Shown piece by piece: positions 18,204 to 30,910 of a stretch of 32,761 nucleotides of DNA. Each line of letters opens with the position of its first letter. Position 1 is the stretch's first letter. The notes beneath the pieces are model-generated. The model was not told where the DNA came from. It saw only the letters and a program-made list of their open reading frames with translations, and searched no databases. Made by a program: the position numbers and the translations under genes. Location: contig CACZAR010000008.1 in NCBI GenBank assembly GCA_902779135.1, positions 1-32,761 of the forward strand, given 5' to 3'. Source of the DNA: an uncultured Coriobacteriaceae bacterium (GTDB taxonomy: Bacteria > Actinomycetota > Coriobacteriia > Coriobacteriales > Eggerthellaceae).

Positions 18204-20006
18204 ATGGCGTTTCTGCTCGGATGTGAGAAAGTCGGGGTCGACTTCCCCTCGAAAACGGTGTTCGATGAAATCTCGCTTGGCGTGAACGACGGCGAGCGCA
18301 TCGGCATCGTCGGCCGCAATGGCGACGGCAAGTCGACGTTGCTGGCGCTGCTCGGTGGTTTGCTCGAGCCCGATCGTGGGCGCGTAATCAGGACCAACAA
18401 CATTTCCGTCGGCGTGCTTGCGCAGGTCGACGAACTGTCCGACGACGATACGGTCGGTCGGGCCATCGTGGGCGATCTGCCCGAATACGAATGGGCGAGC
18501 AGCGCGCGAATCCGCGGTATCATCGCAGGTATTGTGGGCGACATCGACTGGCAGGCATCTGTTGGAACGCTTTCTGGCGGTCAGCGTCGCCGTGTCGATT
18601 TGGCGCGGTTGCTCGTGGGCGACTGGGACATCCTCATGCTCGACGAGCCCACGAACCATTTGGACGTGCGCGCCATCAACTGGCTGGCACAGCATTTGAA
18701 GACGCGCTGGCGCGAAGGCCAGGGCGCCCTGCTCGTCGTGACGCACGACCGCTGGTTCCTCGACGAGACCTGTTCGACCATGTGGGAAGTGCACGACAAG
18801 CGCATTGAACCGTTCGAAGGTGGGTTCTCAGCCTATATCATGCAACGCGTCGAGCGCGATCGTGTGGCACGCGTGACCGAGGAGCGCCGACAGAACAAGC
18901 TGCGCCGCGAGCTTGCATGGCTCTCGCGTGGCGCGCAGGCGCGATCGACCAAGCAGAAGTTCCGCATCAAAGCCGCCCAGGAGCTCATTGCCGACGTCCC
19001 TCCGCTGCGCAACGAGCTCGAGCTCAAGCGCATGGCCGTGAAGCGTTTGGGCAAGCAGGTCGTCGACGTGAAGAACGTGACGGTGCGCTACGGCGACCAC
19101 ACCGTGCTGGACGGCATCGAGTGGCTCATCGGCCCCGGCGACCGCATCGGCATCGTGGGCAGCAACGGCGCAGGCAAGACCACGTTGCTGAACGTGATCC
19201 AACAGAAGCTGCGGCCGACGAGCGGATACGTGAAGGTCGGCAAGACCGTGAAGTTCGCAGTGCTCTCGCAGCACCTCGACGAGCTGACTGCGCACGGCGA
19301 CGACCGCGTGCGCCAGGTCGTGGGACGCTTCGGACATGCCGTCATGCTCGACGGGCGCGACCAGACCCCCAAACAGCTGCTCGAACGGCTTGGTTTCACG
19401 AATGCCGATCTGAACGAGCCGGTGTGCGATTTGTCGGGCGGGCAGAAGAGACGCCTTGCGCTCATGCTCATCCTGCTGGAAGAACCCAACGTGCTCATCC
19501 TCGACGAGCCGGGAAACGATCTGGATGTTGACATGCTCGCGGCGGTCGAAGACCTGCTTGATGGCTGGCCGGGCACGTTGCTGCTCGTCACGCACGATCG
19601 CTATCTCATGGAACGCGTAACTGACGACCAGTACGGGATAATCGACGGCCATTTGCGCCACCTTCCCGGTGGAATCGACGAGTACCTGACAATTGTGGGC
19701 AACCTCGAGGAGGAAAACGCGCCCGTTGCCAGCAAGGCGGATGCTGCTGCCACGGCAAAACCTGCCAAGGACGGCTCGCTTTCGAACAGCGAGCTGCGCG
19801 CGCTGAAGAAGACGCTTCAATCGACCGATCGCAAGATGAATACGTTGCGCAACAAGATCGAGGATGCGCAGGAGCGCCTGCATTCCGCCGATCCGACCGA
19901 TTTCGTCGTCCTCGGTGATATCCAAGCGGAGATCAACGAGTTGCAGTCGCAGCTCGACGACCTCGAGCTCGTATGGCTTGAGACCGCCGAAGCTCTGGGT
20001 GAGTGA
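18204..20006 (+). CDS. ABC-F family ATPase, Uup-like
   Basis: This 600-residue protein has two soluble ABC domains and no membrane segment. Domain 1 has Walker A GRNGDGKS (37-44), LSGGQ (123-127) and LDEPTNHLD (146-154). The interdomain linker (~215-285) is charged. Domain 2 has GSNGAGKT (319-326), LSGGQ (410-414) and LDEPGNDLD (433-441), where the usual Thr after DEP is Gly. A C-terminal coiled coil runs ~525-600 (ALKKTLQSTDRKMNTLRNKI), as in Uup. ABC-F proteins act on the ribosome or, for Uup, affect DNA integrity; resistance roles also exist but are not indicated here. The TGA stop is the first three bases of a 31-base inverted repeat. Confidence 0.9.
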   Translation: MAFLLGCEKVGVDFPSKTVFDEISLGVNDGERIGIVGRNGDGKSTLLALLGGLLEPDRGRVIRTNNISVGVLAQVDELSDDDTVGRAIVGDLPEYEWASSARIRGIIAGIVGDIDWQASVGTLSGGQRRRVDLARLLVGDWDILMLDEPTNHLDVRAINWLAQHLKTRWREGQGALLVVTHDRWFLDETCSTMWEVHDKRIEPFEGGFSAYIMQRVERDRVARVTEERRQNKLRRELAWLSRGAQARSTKQKFRIKAAQELIADVPPLRNELELKRMAVKRLGKQVVDVKNVTVRYGDHTVLDGIEWLIGPGDRIGIVGSNGAGKTTLLNVIQQKLRPTSGYVKVGKTVKFAVLSQHLDELTAHGDDRVRQVVGRFGHAVMLDGRDQTPKQLLERLGFTNADLNEPVCDLSGGQKRRLALMLILLEEPNVLILDEPGNDLDVDMLAAVEDLLDGWPGTLLLVTHDRYLMERVTDDQYGIIDGHLRHLPGGIDEYLTIVGNLEEENAPVASKADAAATAKPAKDGSLSNSELRALKKTLQSTDRKMNTLRNKIEDAQERLHSADPTDFVVLGDIQAEINELQSQLDDLELVWLETAEALGE

Positions 20007-20069
20007 GTCGAAGGGACAGTCCCAATGACTCATTTCAGAATGAGTCATTGGGACTGTCCCTTCGACTCA
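20004..20069. repeat. Perfect inverted pair of family 3 palindromic units, containing a stop codon
   Basis: Arm 1 (20004-20034) and arm 2 (20039-20069) are exact reverse complements over 31 bases with a 4-base loop TCAG. Each arm contains TGAGTC, GGGACAGTCCC and GACTCA, so it is itself a dyad around a central A. The first three bases are the ABC-F stop codon. It could serve as a transcript-end hairpin for the ABC-F gene, but there is no following T run. It ends 48 bases before the Rrf2 ATG. Confidence 0.93.
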
Positions 20070-20117
20070 TGCCGATGCTGTACAATTCGGATTGAAAGAC
20101 GCGGAAAGGATTCCCAC

Positions 20118-20552
20118 ATGCTCGTAACCACCAAAGGACGCTATGCGATGCGCATGATGGTGTACATCGCGGGGTTCCCCGAGGGGGAGAAAGTTGCGTT
20201 ACGGCATGTGTCGGAGGCGGAGAGCATTTCCTTGAAATACCTCGAGCAGCTTGCTCATTCGCTCGTAAACGCCGGCTTGCTGACGAGCGTGCGCGGGCAC
20301 GGCGGCGGTTACGTTCTCGGCAAGCCTGCCGAGGAAATCACGGCAGGGGAGATTCTTCGCGCTGTCGAGGGGACGACTGTTCCGGTAGCGTGTGCTGCGC
20401 TCGAGGAAGGCGGCGAATGCCCACGTGAGAGGGTCTGTTCGACCATATCGTTCTGGGCTGGTCTCGACGATGTCATCGAACGTTATGTCGACAACGTCAC
20501 CCTCGCAGAGTTGAGCGCCGACGACGACGGTCGTGCGTTCGGACTGGAATAG
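20118..20552 (+). CDS. Rrf2/IscR-like regulator with three cysteines
   Basis: This 144-residue Rrf2-family winged-helix protein begins LVTTKGRYAMRMMVYIA, followed by the recognition region SISLKYLEQLAHSLVNAGLL and the wing SVRGHGGGYVLGKPAEEITA. Cys92, Cys101 and Cys107 lie in ACAALEEGGECPRERVC, close to the iron-sulfur cysteines of IscR, so sensing of Fe-S status, redox or nitrosative stress is likely by inference. No isc/suf/nif or cysteine synthesis genes are nearby to name its regulon. GAAAGGA lies upstream of the ATG. TACAAT at 20081-20086 is a possible -10, just outside the family 3 repeat. Confidence 0.9.
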   Translation: MLVTTKGRYAMRMMVYIAGFPEGEKVALRHVSEAESISLKYLEQLAHSLVNAGLLTSVRGHGGGYVLGKPAEEITAGEILRAVEGTTVPVACAALEEGGECPRERVCSTISFWAGLDDVIERYVDNVTLAELSADDDGRAFGLE

Positions 20553-20698: not shown

Positions 20699-23600
20699 AT
20701 GTCAGCGCAATTCAACGTCTGCGCAGCCGATGCGCGCGTGGTCGCATTATTGCGGCAGCATTTTGATCTGCCCGAATTCATGGCGTCCATCATGGCGGCG
20801 CGTGGCATCACGTCGGTCGAGCAAGCAGAGCGTTTCCTCAACCCGAGCCTCGATCGCGACTGGCTCGAACCGTACGACATGCAGGGAATCGGCGAGGTGG
20901 TTGACCATCTCGAGCAGGCTATTCGCGACCGCCGCCATATCGTCGTGTTCGGCGATTTCGACGTCGACGGCGTGTCTGCCACGACGGTGCTCACGCGCGG
21001 ACTGCGCGCCCTGGGCGGTTACGCAACGCCGTTCATCCCGCGTCGCTTCGACGAGGGCTATGCATTATCGCCGGCGGCTTGCGAGCGCGTGAAGAAGCTC
21101 GACCCTGAGATTATCGTGACGGTCGACTGCGGCATCGCTTGCAAGGACGAAGTGGCTGCCATCACGGCGGAAGGCATCGAGGTCATCATCACGGACCACC
21201 ACGAGGTGGGGGAGCTGAAGCCCGTTGGTGTGCCTATCGTCGATCCGAAAACCGACCCCGATTGCCCGAGTTCGATTCTTGCCGGCGTGGGCGTTGCACT
21301 CAAGGTGGTTCAGGCGCTCGGTGGGCGCTTCGGGTTCCCGCACCTGTGGCGCAACTACACCGACTTGGCAACGCTTGGCACGGTTGCCGACCTGATGCCC
21401 ATGCGCGACGAGAACCGCGCACTCGTGGCTGATGGCCTAGCGCGTATCAACAACAATCCGCGCCCGTGCATCGCGGCGCTTCTCGGCCAGACCGGCGCTG
21501 CGGGCAAGCCCGTGACTGCGACCGACCTAAGCTTCTCGCTGATTCCGCGGTTGAACGCTGCTGGGCGTCTGGGTGATGCCCAGATTGCGCTCGACTTGCT
21601 CATGACCGACGATTTCGACACGGCGTGCAAGCTCGCCGCCGAGCTCGAAGCTACCAACGACAAACGCCGCGCCATCGAGGCCGAGCTTTCTGAGGTCGCG
21701 CGTGACACGGCACTTTCGGTCTACCACGGTCAACGCGCGCTTGTGGTGGCGGGCGAAGGTTGGCACGAAGGCGTGAAGGGCATCGTGGCCAGCCGTCTCG
21801 TGCACACGTACGGTGTGCCATGCTTGCTGTTCACCATCGACGGCGACGAGGCGCGGGGCAGCGGTCGCACGGTCGGTCAGGTCAACTTGTTCAAAGCGGT
21901 TGAGAGCACCGAGGACCTGCTCACGCGCTTTGGCGGGCATGAAGCTGCCGTCGGCGTCACCCTTCCAGCTGCCAACCTCGACGCGTTCTCCGAGCGGTTG
22001 TGTGCCTATATGGACGAGCTGCCCGAGGATGCGTTCCATCCGCTCATCGAGATCGACGCTTGCGTCTCGCTCGACGAGCTCACCATCGAAAACGTTGAGA
22101 AGCTCCAAGCGCTCGCCCCCTTCGGGCAGGAGAACCGAACGCCGTGTCTGCTGGCGCGCGACGTCGTGCTGTCGAACGCGCGCGCGGTGGGTGCCGACAA
22201 GAGCCACTTCTCGTGTCAGCTGGGCGATGGCGTTGCGAAGATCTCGGGCATCATGTTCCACTGCAACGACATCGAGATGCTCATGAAAACCGACAGCGTC
22301 GTGAATGCTGCATTCGAAGTGCAGATCGATGAGTGGCGTGGCCGCCGTTCGGTGAAGGCCATGCTCAAGTCGCTGGCTCCCGCCCAGCCGTGCGCTGCGC
22401 TCGAGGCATGCCTCGATCCGGGGAACCTACGATTCTTCTCCGACCTCTATGCGACATCCGACGAGGAACTCTGCGAGACGCAGGCCGAAAGCCCCCAGGA
22501 CATCGAAGCGTTCGAAGCAAGCCGCTCCGAAGCCCGCGCAGCGTGGGAGCGTCGTGCGGCAACAGAGCCAGCGAAGCTCGAAGCGGACATCGTGCGTGCG
22601 CTCATCGGCGATGGCCAGTTGCATCCCGAGCAGCGGGAAGTGCTCAATCATCTGCAACAGGGGCGTTCCACCATGTGCGTCATGGCGACCGGCCGCGGCA
22701 AGTCGCTCATCTTCCACGTGCATGCCGCACGTTGCGCGTTGCGCGATGGATCGGCGAGCCTGTTCGTTTATCCGCTGCGTGCGCTCATTGCCGACCAGGC
22801 CTTCCATTTGAACAACGCGCTTGCCCGATTCGGGCTCACCTCGAGCGTGCTTACGGGCGAGTCGTCGCCCGAGGAGCGGCGCGCCATCTACGCCGCGCTC
22901 GAGGACGGCTCGTGCGACATCGTGTTGACGACTCCCGAGTTCTTGACTCTGCATGTCGACGACCTGGCGAGGTCGGGCCGCATCCGCTTCGTCGTCATCG
23001 ACGAGGCCCATCACATCGGCATGGCGAAAGCGGGCGACCGCCCTGCCTACACCGAGCTCGACACCGCGCTCGAACGGCTCGGCAATCCGACCGTGCTCGC
23101 GCTGACCGCGACAGCAAGCGGCATCGTCGCTCGCGACATCGCCACGCAGTTGCCCATCGAGACTTGCGTGTTCGACCAGACAGACCGTCCGAACCTTTAC
23201 ATCGACGATCGTCGCGGATCGAAGGCGCGCGAAGACTACCTTGCCAACCTGGTGGCCGGCGGCGAGAAGACGGTTGTGTACGTCAACTCCCGTTCCAGCT
23301 CGGTGGCGCTCGCACGGGCGCTGCGCAGCAAGGTGCCGCAGCTGGCGCTCATGATCGGCTTCTACAATGCGGGTCTTTCGCGCGAGGAGCGTACGCGCAT
23401 CGAGGAGATGTTCCGTGACGGGCACCTGACAACGCTCATCGCCACGTCGGCGTTCGGCGAAGGCGTCAACATTCCCGACATCCGCCACGTTGTGCTCTAC
23501 CACTTGCCCTACAACGAGATCGAGTTCAACCAGATGAGCGGTCGAGCCGGGCGCGACGGCGCTCCGGCGGGCGTGCACTTGCTCTACACCCGCAAGGACT

Positions 23601-24034
23601 CCGAGATTAACGAGTCGACGCTCGAGCAGATGACTCCCGACCGCGATCAGATGGCCCAGGTGTACCGTGCGTTGCGAGATGCGCAGCGCGAAGTGGGAGA
23701 TGGGTTCTTCACGGCGAGCAATGCCGACGTGGCCATGCGTGCGTCGAAGAGCGGGCGTGAGGTCTCGCAAGATTCGGTGAAATGCGCTATCGAGGTCTTC
23801 CGCGAGCTTGGCCTCATCGAGACGCATTCCGCATACACCTCGGGTGAGGTCGTGCGCTCGGTGCATGTGGTCTCGGATGCCTGCAAAGTCGAGCTTTCCG
23901 ATTCCGTGCGCTACCGTGAGGGCCTCGCAGAGCGTGCCGTCTTCCAGGATTTCAAAGTTGCTGCCCTCAATGAGCCGGCTGCATCTCTCGAGCAACACGT
24001 CCAGCGTCCCATCTTGCCCGGCTGTGCCGTCTGA
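20699..24034 (+). CDS. recJ: RecJ exonuclease fused to a RecQ-like SF2 helicase
   Basis: This 1111-residue fusion has a RecJ 5'-3' single-strand exonuclease in the first half: GDFDVDG (85-91), TDHHE (165-169), a DHHA1 motif FGGHEAAVG (411-419) and an OB-like region to ~560. After a linker rich in E and A (~565-625), a second enzyme begins: LHPEQREVL, Walker A ATGRGKS (663-669), DEAHH (768-772), ALTATAS (801-807), motif V region SAFGEGVNIP and motif VI QMSGRAGRDG (945-954). These fit a RecQ-type 3'-5' helicase. The four-cysteine zinc site of RecQ is not seen; the C-terminal ~120 residues contain a winged-helix-like stretch (VKCAIEVFRELGLIETHSAY). RecJ and RecQ act together in RecF-pathway repair, so the fusion links unwinding to resection. 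ATG 20699 follows GAGG; the reading frame is unbroken. Confidence 0.92.
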   Translation: MSAQFNVCAADARVVALLRQHFDLPEFMASIMAARGITSVEQAERFLNPSLDRDWLEPYDMQGIGEVVDHLEQAIRDRRHIVVFGDFDVDGVSATTVLTRGLRALGGYATPFIPRRFDEGYALSPAACERVKKLDPEIIVTVDCGIACKDEVAAITAEGIEVIITDHHEVGELKPVGVPIVDPKTDPDCPSSILAGVGVALKVVQALGGRFGFPHLWRNYTDLATLGTVADLMPMRDENRALVADGLARINNNPRPCIAALLGQTGAAGKPVTATDLSFSLIPRLNAAGRLGDAQIALDLLMTDDFDTACKLAAELEATNDKRRAIEAELSEVARDTALSVYHGQRALVVAGEGWHEGVKGIVASRLVHTYGVPCLLFTIDGDEARGSGRTVGQVNLFKAVESTEDLLTRFGGHEAAVGVTLPAANLDAFSERLCAYMDELPEDAFHPLIEIDACVSLDELTIENVEKLQALAPFGQENRTPCLLARDVVLSNARAVGADKSHFSCQLGDGVAKISGIMFHCNDIEMLMKTDSVVNAAFEVQIDEWRGRRSVKAMLKSLAPAQPCAALEACLDPGNLRFFSDLYATSDEELCETQAESPQDIEAFEASRSEARAAWERRAATEPAKLEADIVRALIGDGQLHPEQREVLNHLQQGRSTMCVMATGRGKSLIFHVHAARCALRDGSASLFVYPLRALIADQAFHLNNALARFGLTSSVLTGESSPEERRAIYAALEDGSCDIVLTTPEFLTLHVDDLARSGRIRFVVIDEAHHIGMAKAGDRPAYTELDTALERLGNPTVLALTATASGIVARDIATQLPIETCVFDQTDRPNLYIDDRRGSKAREDYLANLVAGGEKTVVYVNSRSSSVALARALRSKVPQLALMIGFYNAGLSREERTRIEEMFRDGHLTTLIATSAFGEGVNIPDIRHVVLYHLPYNEIEFNQMSGRAGRDGAPAGVHLLYTRKDSEINESTLEQMTPDRDQMAQVYRALRDAQREVGDGFFTASNADVAMRASKSGREVSQDSVKCAIEVFRELGLIETHSAYTSGEVVRSVHVVSDACKVELSDSVRYREGLAERAVFQDFKVAALNEPAASLEQHVQRPILPGCAV

Positions 24035-24131: not shown

Positions 24132-26459
24132 ATGGCATACAAAGACGTTATCGAGCAAGCTGCAGCGACAACTGGTCATGCACACGGGTTCGGTCACGGC
24201 GAGGGCAAGACGCCCGAGGAACGCTTTGCCGACCTCCAGGAAATCGCAGCCACGTACCTCAGCCCCGAAGAAGAGGCGACGCTCGTTGAGGCGTTCGAGT
24301 TCGCCAACGAAGCTCATAAAAGCCAGAAACGCAGGTCAGGCGAGCCCTACATCATACATCCCATCGAGGTCACCATCATCCTCGCTGGATTGCATATGGA
24401 CGTTGAGACGCTCGTTGCCGCGCTGTTGCACGACACAATCGAAGACACCGAAGTAACGCGCGAGGATGTCGTCGAGCGCTTTGGCGAAGATGTTGCAGCG
24501 CTCGTCGAGGGAGTCACGAAGATCACTCAGATCGAGGTTGCCACGCTCACCGACGAGCAGGCTGCCACCATCCGCAAGATGCTCGTGGCGATGAACAAGG
24601 ATATTCGCGTCATCGTCATCAAGCTTGCCGACCGCCTGCATAACATGCGGACGCTCAGCAGCCTGCGCGAGGACCGTCGCATCTTCAAGGCGCGCGAAAC
24701 CCTCGAGATCTACGCGCCCATCGCGCATCGTCTGGGCATCAACTCGATCAAGTGGGAGCTCGAGGACCTCTCGTTCTACTATCTCGACCCGGCCAAGTAC
24801 AAGCAAGTCGCCAAGATGCTCACCGAGAGCCGTGCCGAGCGCGAGGAATACCTCAACAAGGTGCTCGAAATCCTGAAAGCCGAGATGAAGAAGGTCGGCA
24901 TCGACGCGCAGGTCATGGGCCGCCCGAAGCACCTCTTCTCGATTTACCAGAAGATGACGAAGAAGGACAAGGGCTTCTCCGAAATCTACGACCTCATCGC
25001 TGTGCGCCTCATCGTGCCGACGGTGAAGGACTGTTATTCAGCGCTTGGTGCCGTGCACACGATTTGGCACCCGATGCCCGGCCGTTTCAAAGACTACATC
25101 GCGATGCCGAAATACAACATGTACCAATCGCTGCACACGACGGTTATCGGCCCCGCAGGTCGCCCGCTCGAGGTGCAGATTCGCACCGAGGAAATGCATC
25201 AGCAAAGCGAGTTCGGCGTTGCGGCGCACTGGCTGTACAAGGAAGGCGGCAAGAAGGGCAAGAAGAGCGGCGATTTCGAGCAACAGCTTGCGTGGCTGCG
25301 CCAGATGGTCGACTGGTCTGACGAGACTCCCGACTCGAAGGAGTTCTTGAAGGACTTGAAGGTCGACCTCGACGAGTCCGAGGTGTTCGTGTTCACCCGC
25401 AATGGCGACGCGAAGAGCTTGCGGGCAGGCTCCACGCCAGTCGACTTCGCCTATGCCATCCACACCGAGGTGGGCAACCATTGCGTTGGCGCCAAGGTCA
25501 ACGGGCGCATCGTGCCGCTGTCCTACGAGCTGCAGATGGGCGACCGCGTTGAGATCCTGACGCAGAAGAGCGCCACGCCGTCGCGTGGGTGGCTTGGCAT
25601 CGTGAAGACCCCCGGCGCCCGCTCGAAAATCCGCAGCTATTTCTCGAGGGTCACGCGCAGTGACGACATGCAGCTCGGTCACGAGAAACTCGCACGCGAG
25701 ATGCGCAAGCACAACATCGGCATTTCGAACGCGCAGTCGACGCGCGCAATCAAGTTGGTTGCCGAGAGCTTGGGCTATAAAGAGTCCGATGACATGATCG
25801 TTGCCATCGGTGCAGGGAAAGAAAGCGCCCAGCATGTGGCGAACCGCCTGTTGAAGATCCTGGTCGACCGCGGTACCAAGGAAGCGTCGATGCCCGACAT
25901 CGGCATGTCCGGCACGGCGACTGGCAAGATGCCGCCCATGATCACGAGCGTTGCGCGCCCGAAACGTCACGAGACACACACGTCCAACGGCATCGTGGTT
26001 AAGGGCCTCAACGACGTGCTCGTGCGTCTGTCGCGCTGCTGCAACCCGGTGTTTGGCGACGACATCGTCGGCTTCGTCACCCGTGGACGCGGCGTGTCGG
26101 TGCATCGTGCCGACTGCCCGAACGCGAAGAGCCTCATGAAAGAACCCGAGCGCATCATCGACGTCGAATGGGAGCAGGGCGACGTGTCGACGGCGACGTA
26201 CCGCATCGAGGTGCACATCGAGGCCATGGATCGCATGAACCTGCTGCGCGACGTCATCACGGTGCTCGCACAAGAAGGCGTGAACGTGCTGAACTCGTCG
26301 TCTGCAGTTGGCAACGACGGCATCGTGCGCATGCGCTACGTGTTCCAGGTGTCTGACGTCGGACACGTGCAGGACGTGCTCCTGCGCATTCTCGAGGTGG
26401 ACGGCGTGTTCGAAGCACGCCGCATGAACCCAGGCGAGTACGTCGGCGCTGGCAAGTAA
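24132..26459 (+). CDS. rel: Bifunctional (p)ppGpp synthetase/hydrolase Rel
   Basis: This 775-residue long RSH protein makes and degrades ppGpp in the stringent response. The hydrolase HD domain is intact: GEPYIIHP with His76, LLHDTIEDTE with His100-Asp101, and KLADRLHNMRTL with Asp167. The synthetase carries IYQKMTKKDKGF, DLIAVRLIVP and GRFKDYIAMPKYNMYQSLHT; the RFKD (RxKD) motif marks a bifunctional enzyme rather than a RelA type (ExDD). TGS follows at ~414-476 (VFVFTRNGDAKSLRAGSTPV), then a cysteine-containing domain LSRCCNPVFGDDIVGFVTRG and a C-terminal ACT domain. ATG 24132 lies after AAGGGAGGGG. It is the only RSH gene in the window. Confidence 0.96.
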   Translation: MAYKDVIEQAAATTGHAHGFGHGEGKTPEERFADLQEIAATYLSPEEEATLVEAFEFANEAHKSQKRRSGEPYIIHPIEVTIILAGLHMDVETLVAALLHDTIEDTEVTREDVVERFGEDVAALVEGVTKITQIEVATLTDEQAATIRKMLVAMNKDIRVIVIKLADRLHNMRTLSSLREDRRIFKARETLEIYAPIAHRLGINSIKWELEDLSFYYLDPAKYKQVAKMLTESRAEREEYLNKVLEILKAEMKKVGIDAQVMGRPKHLFSIYQKMTKKDKGFSEIYDLIAVRLIVPTVKDCYSALGAVHTIWHPMPGRFKDYIAMPKYNMYQSLHTTVIGPAGRPLEVQIRTEEMHQQSEFGVAAHWLYKEGGKKGKKSGDFEQQLAWLRQMVDWSDETPDSKEFLKDLKVDLDESEVFVFTRNGDAKSLRAGSTPVDFAYAIHTEVGNHCVGAKVNGRIVPLSYELQMGDRVEILTQKSATPSRGWLGIVKTPGARSKIRSYFSRVTRSDDMQLGHEKLAREMRKHNIGISNAQSTRAIKLVAESLGYKESDDMIVAIGAGKESAQHVANRLLKILVDRGTKEASMPDIGMSGTATGKMPPMITSVARPKRHETHTSNGIVVKGLNDVLVRLSRCCNPVFGDDIVGFVTRGRGVSVHRADCPNAKSLMKEPERIIDVEWEQGDVSTATYRIEVHIEAMDRMNLLRDVITVLAQEGVNVLNSSSAVGNDGIVRMRYVFQVSDVGHVQDVLLRILEVDGVFEARRMNPGEYVGAGK

Positions 26460-26470
26460 TGTGCGATTAA

Positions 26471-26541
26471 TGGCACAAGGCTCCCAGGGAGCGTTGTGCC
26501 ACTATCGAAACGGCACACCGTTCCCAGGGAACGTTGTGCCA
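26471..26541. repeat. Two family 1 palindromic units in the same orientation
   Basis: Unit a (26471-26501, starts TGGCACAAGGCTCCC) and unit b (26511-26541, starts CGGCACACCGTTCCC), each 31 bases with central A, are nine bases apart. Here each unit is nearly a perfect palindrome (one and two mismatches), and the two are not exact complements of each other, unlike the pairs at 15915 and 30922. They fill the 108-base gap between rel and the metallo-hydrolase gene and end 27 bases before its ATG. Confidence 0.9.
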
Positions 26542-26567
26542 CCCGCCATCAGGACAGGAGAAGAGAC

Positions 26568-27218
26568 ATGGCGCAAGGCAAGAACCCATGCGTTTCAATC
26601 GAGGTCATGGTCATGGGGCCGATCGAGAACAACGTCTACATCGTGAGCGATGGCGAAGCGACGTTCGTCGTCGATCCGACGGAGTATGCAAGCTTCATCG
26701 TGGATGCGCTTGACGGTCGTAAGCTCGATGCCATCGTGCTGACCCACGCGCATTGGGACCATGTGGGCGGTGCCTGCGATTTGCGGAGGCTCACGGGGGC
26801 GCAGACGATTGCGAGCGCCATCGATGCGCCGTACATCACGGGTGAGAAGACTCTCGACTCGAGCCACCGCCAGTTCACGCCATGCCCGGTGGACAAGATG
26901 GTGGTCGATGGGGAAGAGCTCGTCATCGGCAACATGAAGTGGAAGGTGCTCGAGACGCCTGGCCACACACGTGGCAGCATTTGCTTGTTCCTCGACCCGA
27001 AGTACGGCAGCGACCCCGATGGGGCGCCCGTTCTCATATCGGGCGATACGCTGTTCCATGGCGCGCATGGTCGCACCGATTTCGAGGGCGGAAACCCCGC
27101 GGACATGATCGCCTCGCTTGCGCGTTTGGCCGATCTGCCGGGTGACACCGTCGTTCTGCCAGGGCACAACGACATCACCACCATTGCGGGGGAGAGCTGG
27201 CTTTCCCGAACCAAGTAG
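26568..27218 (+). CDS. Metallo-beta-lactamase-fold hydrolase, glyoxalase II-like
   Basis: This 216-residue protein has the zinc-binding HxHxDH motif in VLTHAHWDHVGG (His60, His62, Asp64, His65), GHTRGSICLFL (third His), ISGDTLFHGAHGRTDF (bridging Asp) and LPGHNDITTI (last His). This set is typical of small hydroxyacylglutathione hydrolase-like thiolesterases (YcbL type). The true substrate is not evident; gut actinobacteria generally lack glutathione, so another thiol ester is likely (inference). ACAGGAGAAGAG precedes ATG 26568. The frame is open upstream into the repeat, but no real start lies there. Confidence 0.88.
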   Translation: MAQGKNPCVSIEVMVMGPIENNVYIVSDGEATFVVDPTEYASFIVDALDGRKLDAIVLTHAHWDHVGGACDLRRLTGAQTIASAIDAPYITGEKTLDSSHRQFTPCPVDKMVVDGEELVIGNMKWKVLETPGHTRGSICLFLDPKYGSDPDGAPVLISGDTLFHGAHGRTDFEGGNPADMIASLARLADLPGDTVVLPGHNDITTIAGESWLSRTK

Positions 27219-27252: not shown

Positions 27253-27394
27253 ATATGTGTTGCATATTGGTGCGACGGCGCCCTTTCCGACACAGAGCAT
27301 CTACTGAAAACCCATCGTTTGTTCGCCTCCATTGCTGTTATGATTGATGGCGAGAAATCGTCACGTCTGCGTTTGCGAAATTGAGGCTCTGACC

Positions 27395-30300
27395 ATGGCT
27401 TTTGTTCATTTGCACAACCATACCGAATATTCCCTGCTCGACGGCATGACCCACGTCAAGGATATGGTGCGTCGTGCTGCGGAATTCGACATGCCGGCCG
27501 TTGCCATCACCGACCATGGCGTCATGAGCGGTGTGGTCGAACTGTGCGATGCGTGCGATGCCATCGAGAAGGAGACGGGCAAGAAGGTCAAGCCCATCTA
27601 TGGCTGCGAAGTTTACTTCACGACCGACGATTCGCTGGCGCGCGACGGCAAGCCGAAGCTCTACCATCTGCTTCTGCTTGCGAAGACGACCGAGGGTTAC
27701 CACAACCTTCTGCGGCTTGTAAGCGAGTCGCACGTCGACAACTTCTACTACAAGCCGCGCACCACTTACGCGCAGCTGAAGAAGTATGGCCATGGCATCA
27801 TCGGCAGCTCCGCCTGCCTTGCCGGCATCGTGCCCAAGCTGCTCGACGACCGTCAGTTCGACGAGGCATGCAAGTGGGCGTGCAAGCTAGCTGACTGCTT
27901 CGACGAGGGCGACTTCTACATCGAGCTGCAGGATCAGGGCATCAAGACCGACGGCGGTCTGACCCAATACGAACTGAACGTCGAGTTGACGCGCGTTGCG
28001 AGCGCTTGCGGGTTCAAGACTATCGCAACGAACGACTTCCACTACCTCAACCGCGAGGACGCCTCAGCTCACGACATCATTTTGTGCATCGGCACGGGCA
28101 GCAAGGTCAACGATGCCAAGCGCATGCGCTTCGCGAACGACCAGTTCTACATGAAGTCGGAAGAAGAGATGCGCGAGGCGCTCAAGGACTTCCAGGAAGC
28201 ATGCGACAACACGATTGAGGTTGCCGAGAAATGCAACGTCGAGCTCGAGCGCGACATCATCTTGCCGAAGTTCCCCCTGCCTGAAGGCGAGACTAACGAA
28301 TCGTGGTTCCGCCATCAGTGCGAAGTCGGTCTCATCAGGCGTTACGGCGAGGGGAAGGTCACGACGTTCGAGGAACTGCGCCAGCTGCGTCCCGATGTGA
28401 CCGATCGCTACGACATTGAGGCTGAGGTCATCCTGAACGCCGGCTTCCCCGCGTACTTCCTCATCGTGCAGGAATACATCGAATGGGCGCGCAGCCAAGG
28501 CATCGGCGTCGGTCCCGGCCGCGGGTCTGCCGCAGGCGCTATTGTCGCATACGCCATGGGCATCACCGATCTCGACCCGCTCGAGAACGGTTTGCTGTTC
28601 GAGAGGTTCCTCAACCCCGAACGTGTGGAGATGCCCGATATCGACGTCGACTTCGAGCAGGGTCGTCGCGAAGAGGTCATCAACCACATCAAGGACGTCT
28701 ACGGCGAAGACCACGTTTCGCAGGTCATCACGTTCGGCACGTTGCAGGCGAAGAACGCTGTGCGCGATACGGCGCGCGTACTTGATTACCCGTACGGCGT
28801 GGGCGACCGCATCACGAAGCTGATCGGCGACGAGCTCGGCATCACGATCGACAAGGCGCTCGAGCAGAACCCCGACCTCAAGACTGCGTACGACACCGAG
28901 GAAGATGTCCACCGCATCATCGACTCGGCGCGCAGCATCGAAGGTCACCTGCGCGGCGAGGGCGTGCACGCGTGCGCCACGATCATCTGCCGCGACCCGA
29001 TGAGCGATCACGTGCCCATGAAGCGCGATACCAAGGGCGGCGGCATCATCACGCAGTACGACGGCCACTATACTCCCGAGCTGGGCTTGCTCAAGATGGA
29101 CTTCCTAGGCTTGCGTACGCTCGACGTGCTGTCGATGGCCTGCCGCAACGTCAAGGAGCGCCACGGCATCGACCTCGCGCCCGAAGACATTCCCATCAAC
29201 GATCCAGACGCCTTCAGGCTCATGCAGGGCAGGTTGCCCAGCTACGAAGGCGGCCCGATGCTGAACATGGACGGCCTCTTCCAGGTCGAAGGTGCACTGT
29301 ACGTCAGCCTGTTCAGCCGTATGCCTCCGACGAGCTTCGCGCACGTCGTGGCGTCCATCGCGCTGAACCGCCCGGGCCCGCTCGAGTCGGGCATGGTCGA
29401 CGACTACGTCGACGTCGCGTCGGGCAAGAAGCCGGTCCATTACTACGACGATCGCCTGCGCCCGATTCTCGAGGAAACCTATGGCACCATGGTCTACCAG
29501 GAGCAGATCATGCAGGTGTCCATGCGCATGAGCGGCTTCTCGGCCGGCAAGGCCGACAAGCTGCGCAAGGCCATGGGCAAGAAGAAACTCGACGTCATGC
29601 GCCAGCTGCAGGAAGACTGGAACCAGGGCGCTGTCGACAACTGCTACTCGCTCGACATCGCGAAGAAGATTTGGGACGACGCCGAGAAGTTCGCTAAGTA
29701 CGCGTTCAACAAGTCGCACTCGGCGGCGTACGCGATCCTGGTCATGCGCACGGCCTACCTGAAGGCGCACTATCCCTACGAGTTCATGGCCGCCGTGCTG
29801 TCATCGTACATGGGCAATACCGACCGCCTCATCCGCTACATCGCGAGCTGCAACCATACGGGCATTCCCGTCCTGCCGCCCGACATCAACTCGTCCAATG
29901 CCGAGTTCACGCCGGTGGACGAGGGCGTGCGTTTCGGCTTGGTCGGCGTGCGCGGCATCGGCAAGGCCGTTGCCGACGAGATCATCGCCGAACGCGAGCG
30001 CGGTGGTGCGTTCACATCGCTTCATGATTTCGTGAACCGTGTCGATGCCAAGTGCTACAACCGCAAGGCGCTCGAAGCGCTCATCAAGAGCGGTGCGTTC
30101 GACTCGACGGGCTACACGCGTCGCCAGCTCATGTACTTCATCGAGGAGACGCCGCTGCTCGAAGGCGCATCGCGCCGCCAGCGCGACCGCGATGCGGGCC
30201 AGGTCAGCATGTTCGACATGTTTGCCGACGACGAGAGCAGCGGCTTCGCAGATGACGTGCCGGCACCCGACGGCGTCGAGTGGCCCAAGCGCCAGAAGCT

Positions 30301-30910
30301 CGCCTTCGAGAAGGAGATCATGAAGATCTACGTCTCGGAGCATCCGCTCACGCCGTACGAGGACGCCATCGCGCGCATGACGAAGTACCAGATCGGCGAC
30401 TTGATGGACAACACGACCGAGATCAAATCCGCCGTGTTCGTCGGCATGGTCTCAAACGTCGTCAACAAGCTGACGAAGCGCGGTACGCGCATGGCCACGT
30501 TCACGTTGGAGGACACCACCGGTTCGATCGAGTGCATCACGTTCAAGTTCGACGAGGTGGCCGACTCGATCGTCGAAGATGCCATCGTGAAAATCAAGGG
30601 CAAGTTCGAGCACAGCGACCGCGGCAACCAGATCATCGTCTACGAGGCCGAGACGCTTGAACTCTCGGAAGAGGCGGCGCGTCCTGTTCAGTTCGAGCTG
30701 CACGTTCCCTCGAGCGACTTCAACCAGGCACGGGTCCAGCGCTTGAACAACATCCTGGCCGCATATCCAGGACGCGACTACGTGGTGCTGTTCGTATCAC
30801 AGGCAGATGGCCGCAAGTTCCGCGCCGAGCTGCCCGTCACGGTCGATTCGCGCAACGCGATTCTTCGCAGTGAGCTGCAAGACCTCTTCGGCGCTCCCGT
30901 CTGGGTTTAG
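27395..30910 (+). CDS. dnaE: DNA polymerase III alpha subunit
   Basis: This 1171-residue replicative polymerase is of the DnaE1 type. The N-terminal PHP domain starts FVHLHNHTEYSLLDG with His5, His7 and His9, and continues VAITDHGVMSG. The palm has GPGRGSAAGAIVAYAMGITD, MPDIDVDF with catalytic Asp415/Asp417, and LKMDFLGL with Asp569. Then come KSHSAAYAILVMRTAYLKAHYP and the fingers/HhH region (GVRGIGKAVADEII). The C-terminal OB domain is ~1009-1090 (AVFVGMVSNVVNKLTKRGTR). The length is normal for the class. ATG 27395 begins the PHP domain directly; longer in-frame starts add 17 residues with no family support. TATGAT (27339-27344) may be its -10. Confidence 0.97.
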   Translation: MAFVHLHNHTEYSLLDGMTHVKDMVRRAAEFDMPAVAITDHGVMSGVVELCDACDAIEKETGKKVKPIYGCEVYFTTDDSLARDGKPKLYHLLLLAKTTEGYHNLLRLVSESHVDNFYYKPRTTYAQLKKYGHGIIGSSACLAGIVPKLLDDRQFDEACKWACKLADCFDEGDFYIELQDQGIKTDGGLTQYELNVELTRVASACGFKTIATNDFHYLNREDASAHDIILCIGTGSKVNDAKRMRFANDQFYMKSEEEMREALKDFQEACDNTIEVAEKCNVELERDIILPKFPLPEGETNESWFRHQCEVGLIRRYGEGKVTTFEELRQLRPDVTDRYDIEAEVILNAGFPAYFLIVQEYIEWARSQGIGVGPGRGSAAGAIVAYAMGITDLDPLENGLLFERFLNPERVEMPDIDVDFEQGRREEVINHIKDVYGEDHVSQVITFGTLQAKNAVRDTARVLDYPYGVGDRITKLIGDELGITIDKALEQNPDLKTAYDTEEDVHRIIDSARSIEGHLRGEGVHACATIICRDPMSDHVPMKRDTKGGGIITQYDGHYTPELGLLKMDFLGLRTLDVLSMACRNVKERHGIDLAPEDIPINDPDAFRLMQGRLPSYEGGPMLNMDGLFQVEGALYVSLFSRMPPTSFAHVVASIALNRPGPLESGMVDDYVDVASGKKPVHYYDDRLRPILEETYGTMVYQEQIMQVSMRMSGFSAGKADKLRKAMGKKKLDVMRQLQEDWNQGAVDNCYSLDIAKKIWDDAEKFAKYAFNKSHSAAYAILVMRTAYLKAHYPYEFMAAVLSSYMGNTDRLIRYIASCNHTGIPVLPPDINSSNAEFTPVDEGVRFGLVGVRGIGKAVADEIIAERERGGAFTSLHDFVNRVDAKCYNRKALEALIKSGAFDSTGYTRRQLMYFIEETPLLEGASRRQRDRDAGQVSMFDMFADDESSGFADDVPAPDGVEWPKRQKLAFEKEIMKIYVSEHPLTPYEDAIARMTKYQIGDLMDNTTEIKSAVFVGMVSNVVNKLTKRGTRMATFTLEDTTGSIECITFKFDEVADSIVEDAIVKIKGKFEHSDRGNQIIVYEAETLELSEEAARPVQFELHVPSSDFNQARVQRLNNILAAYPGRDYVVLFVSQADGRKFRAELPVTVDSRNAILRSELQDLFGAPVWV

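Follow-up and report, generated by a model that had tools for sequence, protein, structure and literature searches.

A predicted RecJ nuclease and RecQ-like helicase in a single chain, conserved in Coriobacteriia, and its relation to the C-terminal domain of Bacillota RecJ

The locus considered here raises the question of whether a RecJ nuclease and a RecQ-like helicase can be carried intact by one polypeptide, where such an arrangement came from, and what it would do. In the RecF pathway, RecJ and RecQ are the textbook pairing of nuclease and helicase, with a mode of coupling that is unsettled; the established polarities are 3'->5' for RecQ and 5'->3' for RecJ, and their cooperation is established in E. 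coli. PMC3000357 also mentions cooperation of the two for B. subtilis. In the window (the whole stretch of 32,761 nucleotides that was analysed, from an uncultured Coriobacteriaceae bacterium), the gene at 20699-24034 encodes a protein of 1111 amino acids (aa) in which both partners are present, composed as follows:

20699..24034 (+): recJ-helicase fusion gene, 1111 aa, single open frame from ATG to stop with 0 internal stops
20936..21382 (+): DHH phosphoesterase domain (aa 80-228; Pfam PF01368, 3.8e-19), with motifs GDFDVDG, DHH, and GTVAD
21734..22012 (+): DHHA1 domain (aa 346-438; Pfam PF02272, 2.3e-12), with FGGH motif
22052..22369 (+): RecJ_OB domain (aa 452-557; Pfam PF17768, 2.8e-24)
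22370..22573 (+): linker (aa 558-625), of low model confidence at its start; position of the HIRAN domain in other members
22625..23119 (+): helicase RecA1 (DEAD, aa 643-807; Pfam PF00270, 1.9e-23), with Walker A MATGRGKS and DEAH box
23237..23560 (+): helicase RecA2 (Helicase_C, aa 847-954; Pfam PF00271, 3.3e-24), with motifs IV-VI and NQMSGRAGRDG
23474..23953 (+): stretch homologous, by Pfam, hhalign, and structure match to 8y30, to the Bacillota RecJ C-terminal domain PF10141 (aa 926-1085)
23633..23890 (+): predicted winged-helix domain (about aa 979-1064), from winged-helix matches to residues 58-143 of an AlphaFold2 model (mean predicted local distance difference test (pLDDT) 86.9)

The window protein reached 477.7 bits with the recJ equivalog model of NCBIfam (cut-off 396.9), and its DHH, DHHA1, and RecJ_OB domains with their catalytic motifs place it among the RecJ proteins. 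The DHH motifs as well as motifs 0, I, Ia, II, III, IV, V, and VI of superfamily 2 (SF2) helicases are all intact and conserved in 13 divergent homologues. On its sequence, the protein is read as a bona fide RecJ, a 5'->3' exonuclease on single-stranded DNA, joined by a linker to a RecQ-like SF2 helicase with a winged-helix tail of its own, the activity of both halves being predicted; the catalytic sites in both halves are intact, the fusion is conserved, and the predicted fold is RecQ-like.

The spread of this arrangement was determined in an order-level sample of 41 Coriobacteriales genomes, in all of which RecJ was present. RecJ and helicase were found in a single open frame in 37 of them; of the four exceptions, G011 and G038 had the halves on separate contigs, G034 had them in different frames, and in G031 the RecJ part alone was seen. 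The single frame was also found in 50 of the 53 loci of a contig search, which include the named Eggerthellaceae Gordonibacter, Raoultibacter, Adlercreutzia, Enteroscipio, and Senegalimassilia; the closest of them (97%) belongs to the metagenome-assembled genome (MAG) Coriobacteriaceae RUG12647. Across 246 Actinomycetota genomes, a profile of the C-terminal part gave whole-length matches in frames of at least 1,100 aa only, and these lay in Coriobacteriia and two further families (f23 and f76). The ratio of nonsynonymous to synonymous substitution rates (NG86, against six close homologues) was about 0.02-0.23 in RecJ, linker, helicase, and tail wherever it could be computed, and all four segments, the linker included, are under purifying selection. 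The fusion is a conserved architecture of the whole class (gut and rumen actinobacteria) and not a one-off.

That a missed stop, a frameshift, or a misassembly joined two genes has practically no chance of being the explanation: although the source genome is an incomplete draft (83% complete, 202 contigs), the same frame recurs in the 37 genomes and 50 loci given above, the one-contig genomes G017 and G022 among them. Sequencing error and misassembly were ruled out by this sharing across dozens of independent genomes. An earlier note on this DNA had proposed a single-chain RecJ plus RecQ-like helicase in an unbroken 1111-residue frame with complete DHH and SF2 motifs, and open reading frame, Pfam, and NCBIfam analyses agree with it; the hidden stop or start near residue 600 that it had considered does not exist. 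The fusion that it described is real but not singular, being class-wide and often bearing a HIRAN domain between the halves.

Searches of viral contigs with the fused helicase profile returned 11 unrelated or distant SF2 matches and no fusion, and phages gave RecQ-type or other SF2 matches only, whose coverage of the helicase half did not exceed 72% and so stayed short of 80%. No description of a RecJ-helicase fusion, of RecJ with HIRAN, of PF10141, or of SaRecJ was found in the literature covered, which leaves out most subscription journals; the fusion combines known parts in a conserved variant that is apparently undescribed there, and databases may list it under RecJ. Three loci (L093, L095, and L098, from Rubneribacter, Gordonibacter An230, and a Coriobacteriaceae MAG) carry in-frame insertions of ~61-65 residues just before helicase motif III, near residue 795 of P0001. 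Two f23 fusions (L153, L155) hold short extra in-frame peptides (e.g., CLPPCLPADRAGR, LPVGRAYRQAGRHG) within conserved regions, which resemble small palindromic repeats inserted into the gene. At L157:1350-4685 (+), an open frame of 1112 codons lies antisense to the fusion gene, as is expected of GC-rich coding sequence.

The identity of the helicase half was assessed by family models, sequence motifs, trees, and predicted structure. The window protein scored 195.3 bits with recQ_fam (NCBIfam) and 192 bits with the recQ model, below the respective cut-offs of 219.8 and 640.2, and gave no Pfam match to RecQ_Zn_bind, RQC, or HRDC. The aromatic loop of RecQ, which couples DNA binding to ATP hydrolysis, was present in 18/18 RecQs as SQWGxDFRPxY after the DEAH box and absent in the fused helicases: RecQs read DEAHC(I/V)S(Q/E)WGxDFRPxY, whereas the fused enzymes read DEAHHxxxxxxxxRxxY without the aromatics (e.g., DEAHHIGxAKAGxRxAY). 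With a DEAD-box outgroup, long branches attached on either side of the split between fused helicases and RecQs, because of which the tree was rebuilt without it and has no reliable outgroup; in this tree, built from the cores of 23 fused helicases and 18 separate RecQs, the two sets lie on opposite sides of a branch supported at 100/100. The fused helicases form a separate clade, which may be sister to RecQ or derived from it.

In a structure model of residues 560-1111 (mean pLDDT 84.3; model residues 1-37 below 50), the best fold matches were WRN, BLM, RecQL4, and RecQ (VIA Z 33.7-28, 359-464 residues aligned), and DEAD-box proteins followed at Z 29 and below, i.e., behind or level with the RecQ family. 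The recQ_fam score and these fold matches identify the SF2 core as of RecQ type; after RecA2, a winged helix and then a helical tail are well predicted. The helicase is therefore best described as RecQ-like in sequence and predicted fold yet not RecQ proper, its anatomy being RecQ-like while several marks of RecQ membership are lacking. In the terms of the earlier note, the affiliation with RecQ and not with another SF2 family stands, as does the lack of the zinc cysteines, but the helicase forms a clade of its own outside RecQ proper. The separate recQ that the note had proposed looking for was not found by PF16124 or recQ_fam in the window's own genome (83% complete), while the RecQ zinc domain was found in 67/119 genomes of the class; since these genomes keep a separate RecQ, the fusion is no simple replacement for it. 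The zinc domain is also absent from some complete one-contig genomes (e.g., G042, G043), in which the fused helicase would be the sole RecQ-type enzyme found.

Between the two halves, the linker varies in length from 2 to about 214 residues across aligned homologues, and in 11/11 long-linker homologues scanned for domains, HIRAN lies after OB and ahead of the helicase. HIRAN within a frame of at least 1,100 aa was found in 59/119 class genomes, for most of which identity as a fusion was deduced from frame length, and HIRAN-bearing fusions also occur in the families f23 and f76, which hold the deepest members outside the class. The window protein gave no Pfam match to HIRAN, its lineage being without the domain. 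In a RecJ tree, HIRAN-less forms make up two groups nested among HIRAN forms. Because f23 and f76 carry HIRAN, its presence is probably ancestral, and we infer its loss in several Coriobacteriales families, that of the window included. Small stand-alone HIRAN proteins (112-174 aa; e.g., G000:C102:2130-2399) were seen in many genomes with a HIRAN-less fusion, the window's own genome among them, and some genomes hold both a HIRAN fusion and a stand-alone HIRAN.

The C-terminal part of the protein led outside the Actinomycetota. The Pfam domain PF10141 (ssDNA-exonuc_C), found at the C-terminus of Bacillota RecJ and listed by Pfam without function, matched the window at E 0.0033 for the whole protein and 0.0007 for the helicase half, at most 19.8 bits and so below the Pfam cut-off of 26.4 bits. 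It matched 8 of 27 fused helicases (best 3.7e-5) and gave ten matches in 59 class genomes, nine of them in frames of at least 1,136 aa. Alignment of the fused helicases against three Bacillota RecJ tails by hhalign gave Prob 94.9 and E 4.7e-8, rising to Prob 97.6 and E 3.3e-12 with S. aureus and the bridge protein described below included. As a control, 300 column shuffles were run with sequence ends ungapped; a few scores near 134 over 3-37 aligned columns at the ends in earlier shuffles were an end artefact of hhalign. The real profile-profile score was 84.8 versus at most 24.3 in shuffles (without the bridge, 53.7 versus 25.8), and a profile of 18 real RecQs gave no match to the Bacillota domain (Prob 0.6-0.8%). 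The crystal chain 8y30 of S. aureus RecJ holds the same Bacillota domain (E 3.4e-17), and the model of residues 922-1111 was superimposed on its residues 603-756 with Z 8.8 over 151 residues at a root mean square deviation of 6.0; among the 50 best fold matches listed for this model, 8y30 alone spans it entirely, the rest covering the winged helix. A profile of winged helix and tail searched against PDB chains at E 10, aimed at domain IV of Deinococcus RecJ as a possible remnant, gave no match and also missed 8y30.

The bridge protein is an 862-aa RecJ of another Actinomycetota family (L151 in G238) that is followed by relA and is found by the fused profile at 5.7e-17. After its OB domain, RecA1 and motifs V and VI are gone, the winged helix and a KVEL tail are kept, and the start of RecA2 is still legible (FIDRRG...STIYVRDEHEGVLLAKRL versus YIDDRRG...TVVYVNSRSSSVALARAL). 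Its RecJ half clusters with intact HIRAN fusions in the RecJ tree (98/98), and the most economical reading for this lineage is that a fusion has decayed. By eye and in the alignment, Bacillota tails show the same order of remains, and in two Oscillospiraceae the tail is reduced to the winged helix alone. In Listeria (where apt lies between the two), Vescimonas, Monoglobus, the bridge, and the window alike, relA follows recJ; the neighbouring genes in the window include:

24132..26459 (+): relA/spoT-type (p)ppGpp synthetase, downstream neighbour (Pfam)
18204-20006, 20025-20552, 26496-27218, 27344-30910: ABC-F-type ATPase, Rrf2 regulator, metallo-beta-lactamase-fold protein, DNA polymerase III alpha (window neighbours)

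A tRNA-Arg (tcg) that ARAGORN predicted at 26361-26444 (-), within the 3'-terminal part of the relA frame, may be real or a false call.

The common gene order fits one old locus. By profile and predicted fold, the tail of the window protein is homologous to PF10141, though it is not a curated member, and the domain as such is homologous to the second half of the fused helicase. That the likeness reflects merely the common winged-helix fold is improbable: winged helices are indeed common and fill the list of fold matches, and the window's own E-value is weak, but the match extends to both sides of the winged helix, into the RecA2 strand-helix-strand and the KVELxxS tail, column shuffles and real RecQs give no match, and the bridge stands as an intermediate. 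The tail of RecJ in Staphylococcus, Listeria, and related bacteria has the look of a worn-down remnant of the same motor.

We further infer that the order RecJ-(HIRAN)-helicase is old in Actinomycetota, and it was probably present in the common stock with Bacillota. In the lineage of the bridge, and likely in that of the Bacillota, the ATPase would have decayed through loss of RecA1 and erosion of RecA2, and the winged helix and the tail would have been retained as an appendage for binding DNA or a partner. The whole of this history, i.e., an ancestral one-chain RecJ-HIRAN-helicase resection enzyme of Actinomycetota and Bacillota whose dead motor is the C-terminal domain of Bacillota RecJ, kept as an arm that binds DNA or single-stranded DNA-binding protein (SSB), is a proposition on which we are evenly divided. 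If it is true, the RecJ tails of human pathogens and of B. subtilis should act as a former helicase module.

As to function, the account that we hold to be fairly probable is that of an intact RecJ and an active RecQ-like helicase engaged in coupled resection, with HIRAN as an option and the remnant history set out above, all activities being predicted. At a break, gap, or stalled fork, the helicase would load onto the strand with the 3' end and move along this strand into the duplex in the 3'->5' direction; the strand with the 5' end, displaced in the process, would be threaded into the active site of RecJ for 5'->3' digestion. Because the opposite polarities of RecQ and RecJ on antiparallel strands amount to the same direction of travel along the duplex, unwinding and digestion could proceed simultaneously in one chain, with a 3' tail left over for RecA; where HIRAN is present, it would hold the 3' end. 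The self-contained resection machine that the earlier note had proposed is plausible. Several points weigh against parts of this account: more than half of the class keeps a canonical RecQ, so that the fused helicase may have another task, and the absence of the aromatic loop means that polarity and substrate may differ from those of RecQ. On the historical side, the superposition on 8y30 has a root mean square deviation of 6.0, the RecJ tree gives no supported placement of Bacillota RecJ beside the fusions, so that transfer or independent decay may account for the Bacillota tail, and the Bacillota are represented by a handful of sequences (plasmid-collection records) and one structure.

The main competing explanation, which we regard as rather unlikely, is a fork remodeller in which the helicase, with HIRAN if present, mainly reverses or clears stalled forks in the manner of human HLTF while RecJ trims the nascent lagging strand and end resection is secondary. 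HIRAN with an SF2 motor is the combination of HLTF, whose HIRAN domain, going by PMC4666394 and the title of its reference 29, binds 3' DNA ends and powers the reversal of forks; both RecJ and RecQ of B. subtilis are located at forks via SSB (PMC3000357), and an AddA/UvrD-like frame of at least 1,100 aa, scoring below the AddA cut-off, occurs in most class genomes, by which break resection could be covered otherwise. The HLTF motor, however, is a SNF2 translocase on double-stranded DNA whereas the fused motor is RecQ-like, the window lineage is without HIRAN, and the intact 5'->3' nuclease is kept everywhere. Fusion for co-expression alone, with both enzymes working independently and no mechanical coupling, has little probability. 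It would agree with the variable length of the linker, the first part of which is predicted to be disordered, and with the adjacent separate recJ and recQ genes of Bacteroidota, but the chain stays unsplit across divergent families, the linker is itself under purifying selection, and RecJ has held on to a decayed helicase part in the bridge as well as in Bacillota, suggesting that it has a use for the tail.

The single chain fixes the geometry of RecJ and helicase, so that coupling is directly testable with one purified protein, and HIRAN members bring a predicted grip on the 3' end. Through its link to the fusion, PF10141, which is carried by the RecJ of Bacillus, Listeria, and Staphylococcus, is for the first time provided with an origin and with a role that can be tested. 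New here are the HIRAN domain in about half of the class and two outside families and the homology of PF10141 to the second half of the helicase, and the HIRAN arrangement and the Bacillota remnant are more surprising results than the fusion itself.

Set against known systems, the fusion shares with bacterial RecJ (E. coli, T. thermophilus, D. radiodurans) the DHH-DHHA1-RecJ_OB core, all motifs, and a score above the recJ equivalog cut-off, and differs in adding a whole helicase after OB. With the RecQ family (RecQ, WRN, BLM, RecQL4) it shares a motif 0-like element, motifs I-VI, and the predicted fold (Z up to 33.7), but it falls below the recQ_fam cut-off, lacks zinc domain, RQC, HRDC, and aromatic loop, forms its own clade, and is joined to RecJ. 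Bacillota RecJ with a PF10141 tail (S. aureus 8y30, Listeria, Paenibacillus) has the RecJ core, the recJ-relA neighbourhood, and a homologous winged helix and tail in common with it, whereas the Bacillota tail is without RecA1 and ATPase motifs, as a dead remnant would be. The adjacent recJ and recQ of Bacteroidota bring the same two partner activities side by side, but as two genes and with a zinc-bearing RecQ that clusters with canonical RecQ; recJ adjoins such a recQ in L100, L101, and L102, with an overlap of a few bases in Bacteroides finegoldii. DinG with an N-terminal 3'-5' exonuclease (S. aureus, B. subtilis) likewise combines nuclease and SF2 helicase in a single chain (PMC12345164), although its nuclease is of the DEDD 3'-5' type and its helicase XPD-like and 5'-3'. 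HLTF/Rad5 resembles many members of the fusion in having HIRAN before an SF2 motor, and fork-reversing SF2 enzymes other than HLTF are without HIRAN (PMC4666394); in HLTF the domain is combined with a SNF2 motor and RING, in the fusion with RecJ and a RecQ-like motor.

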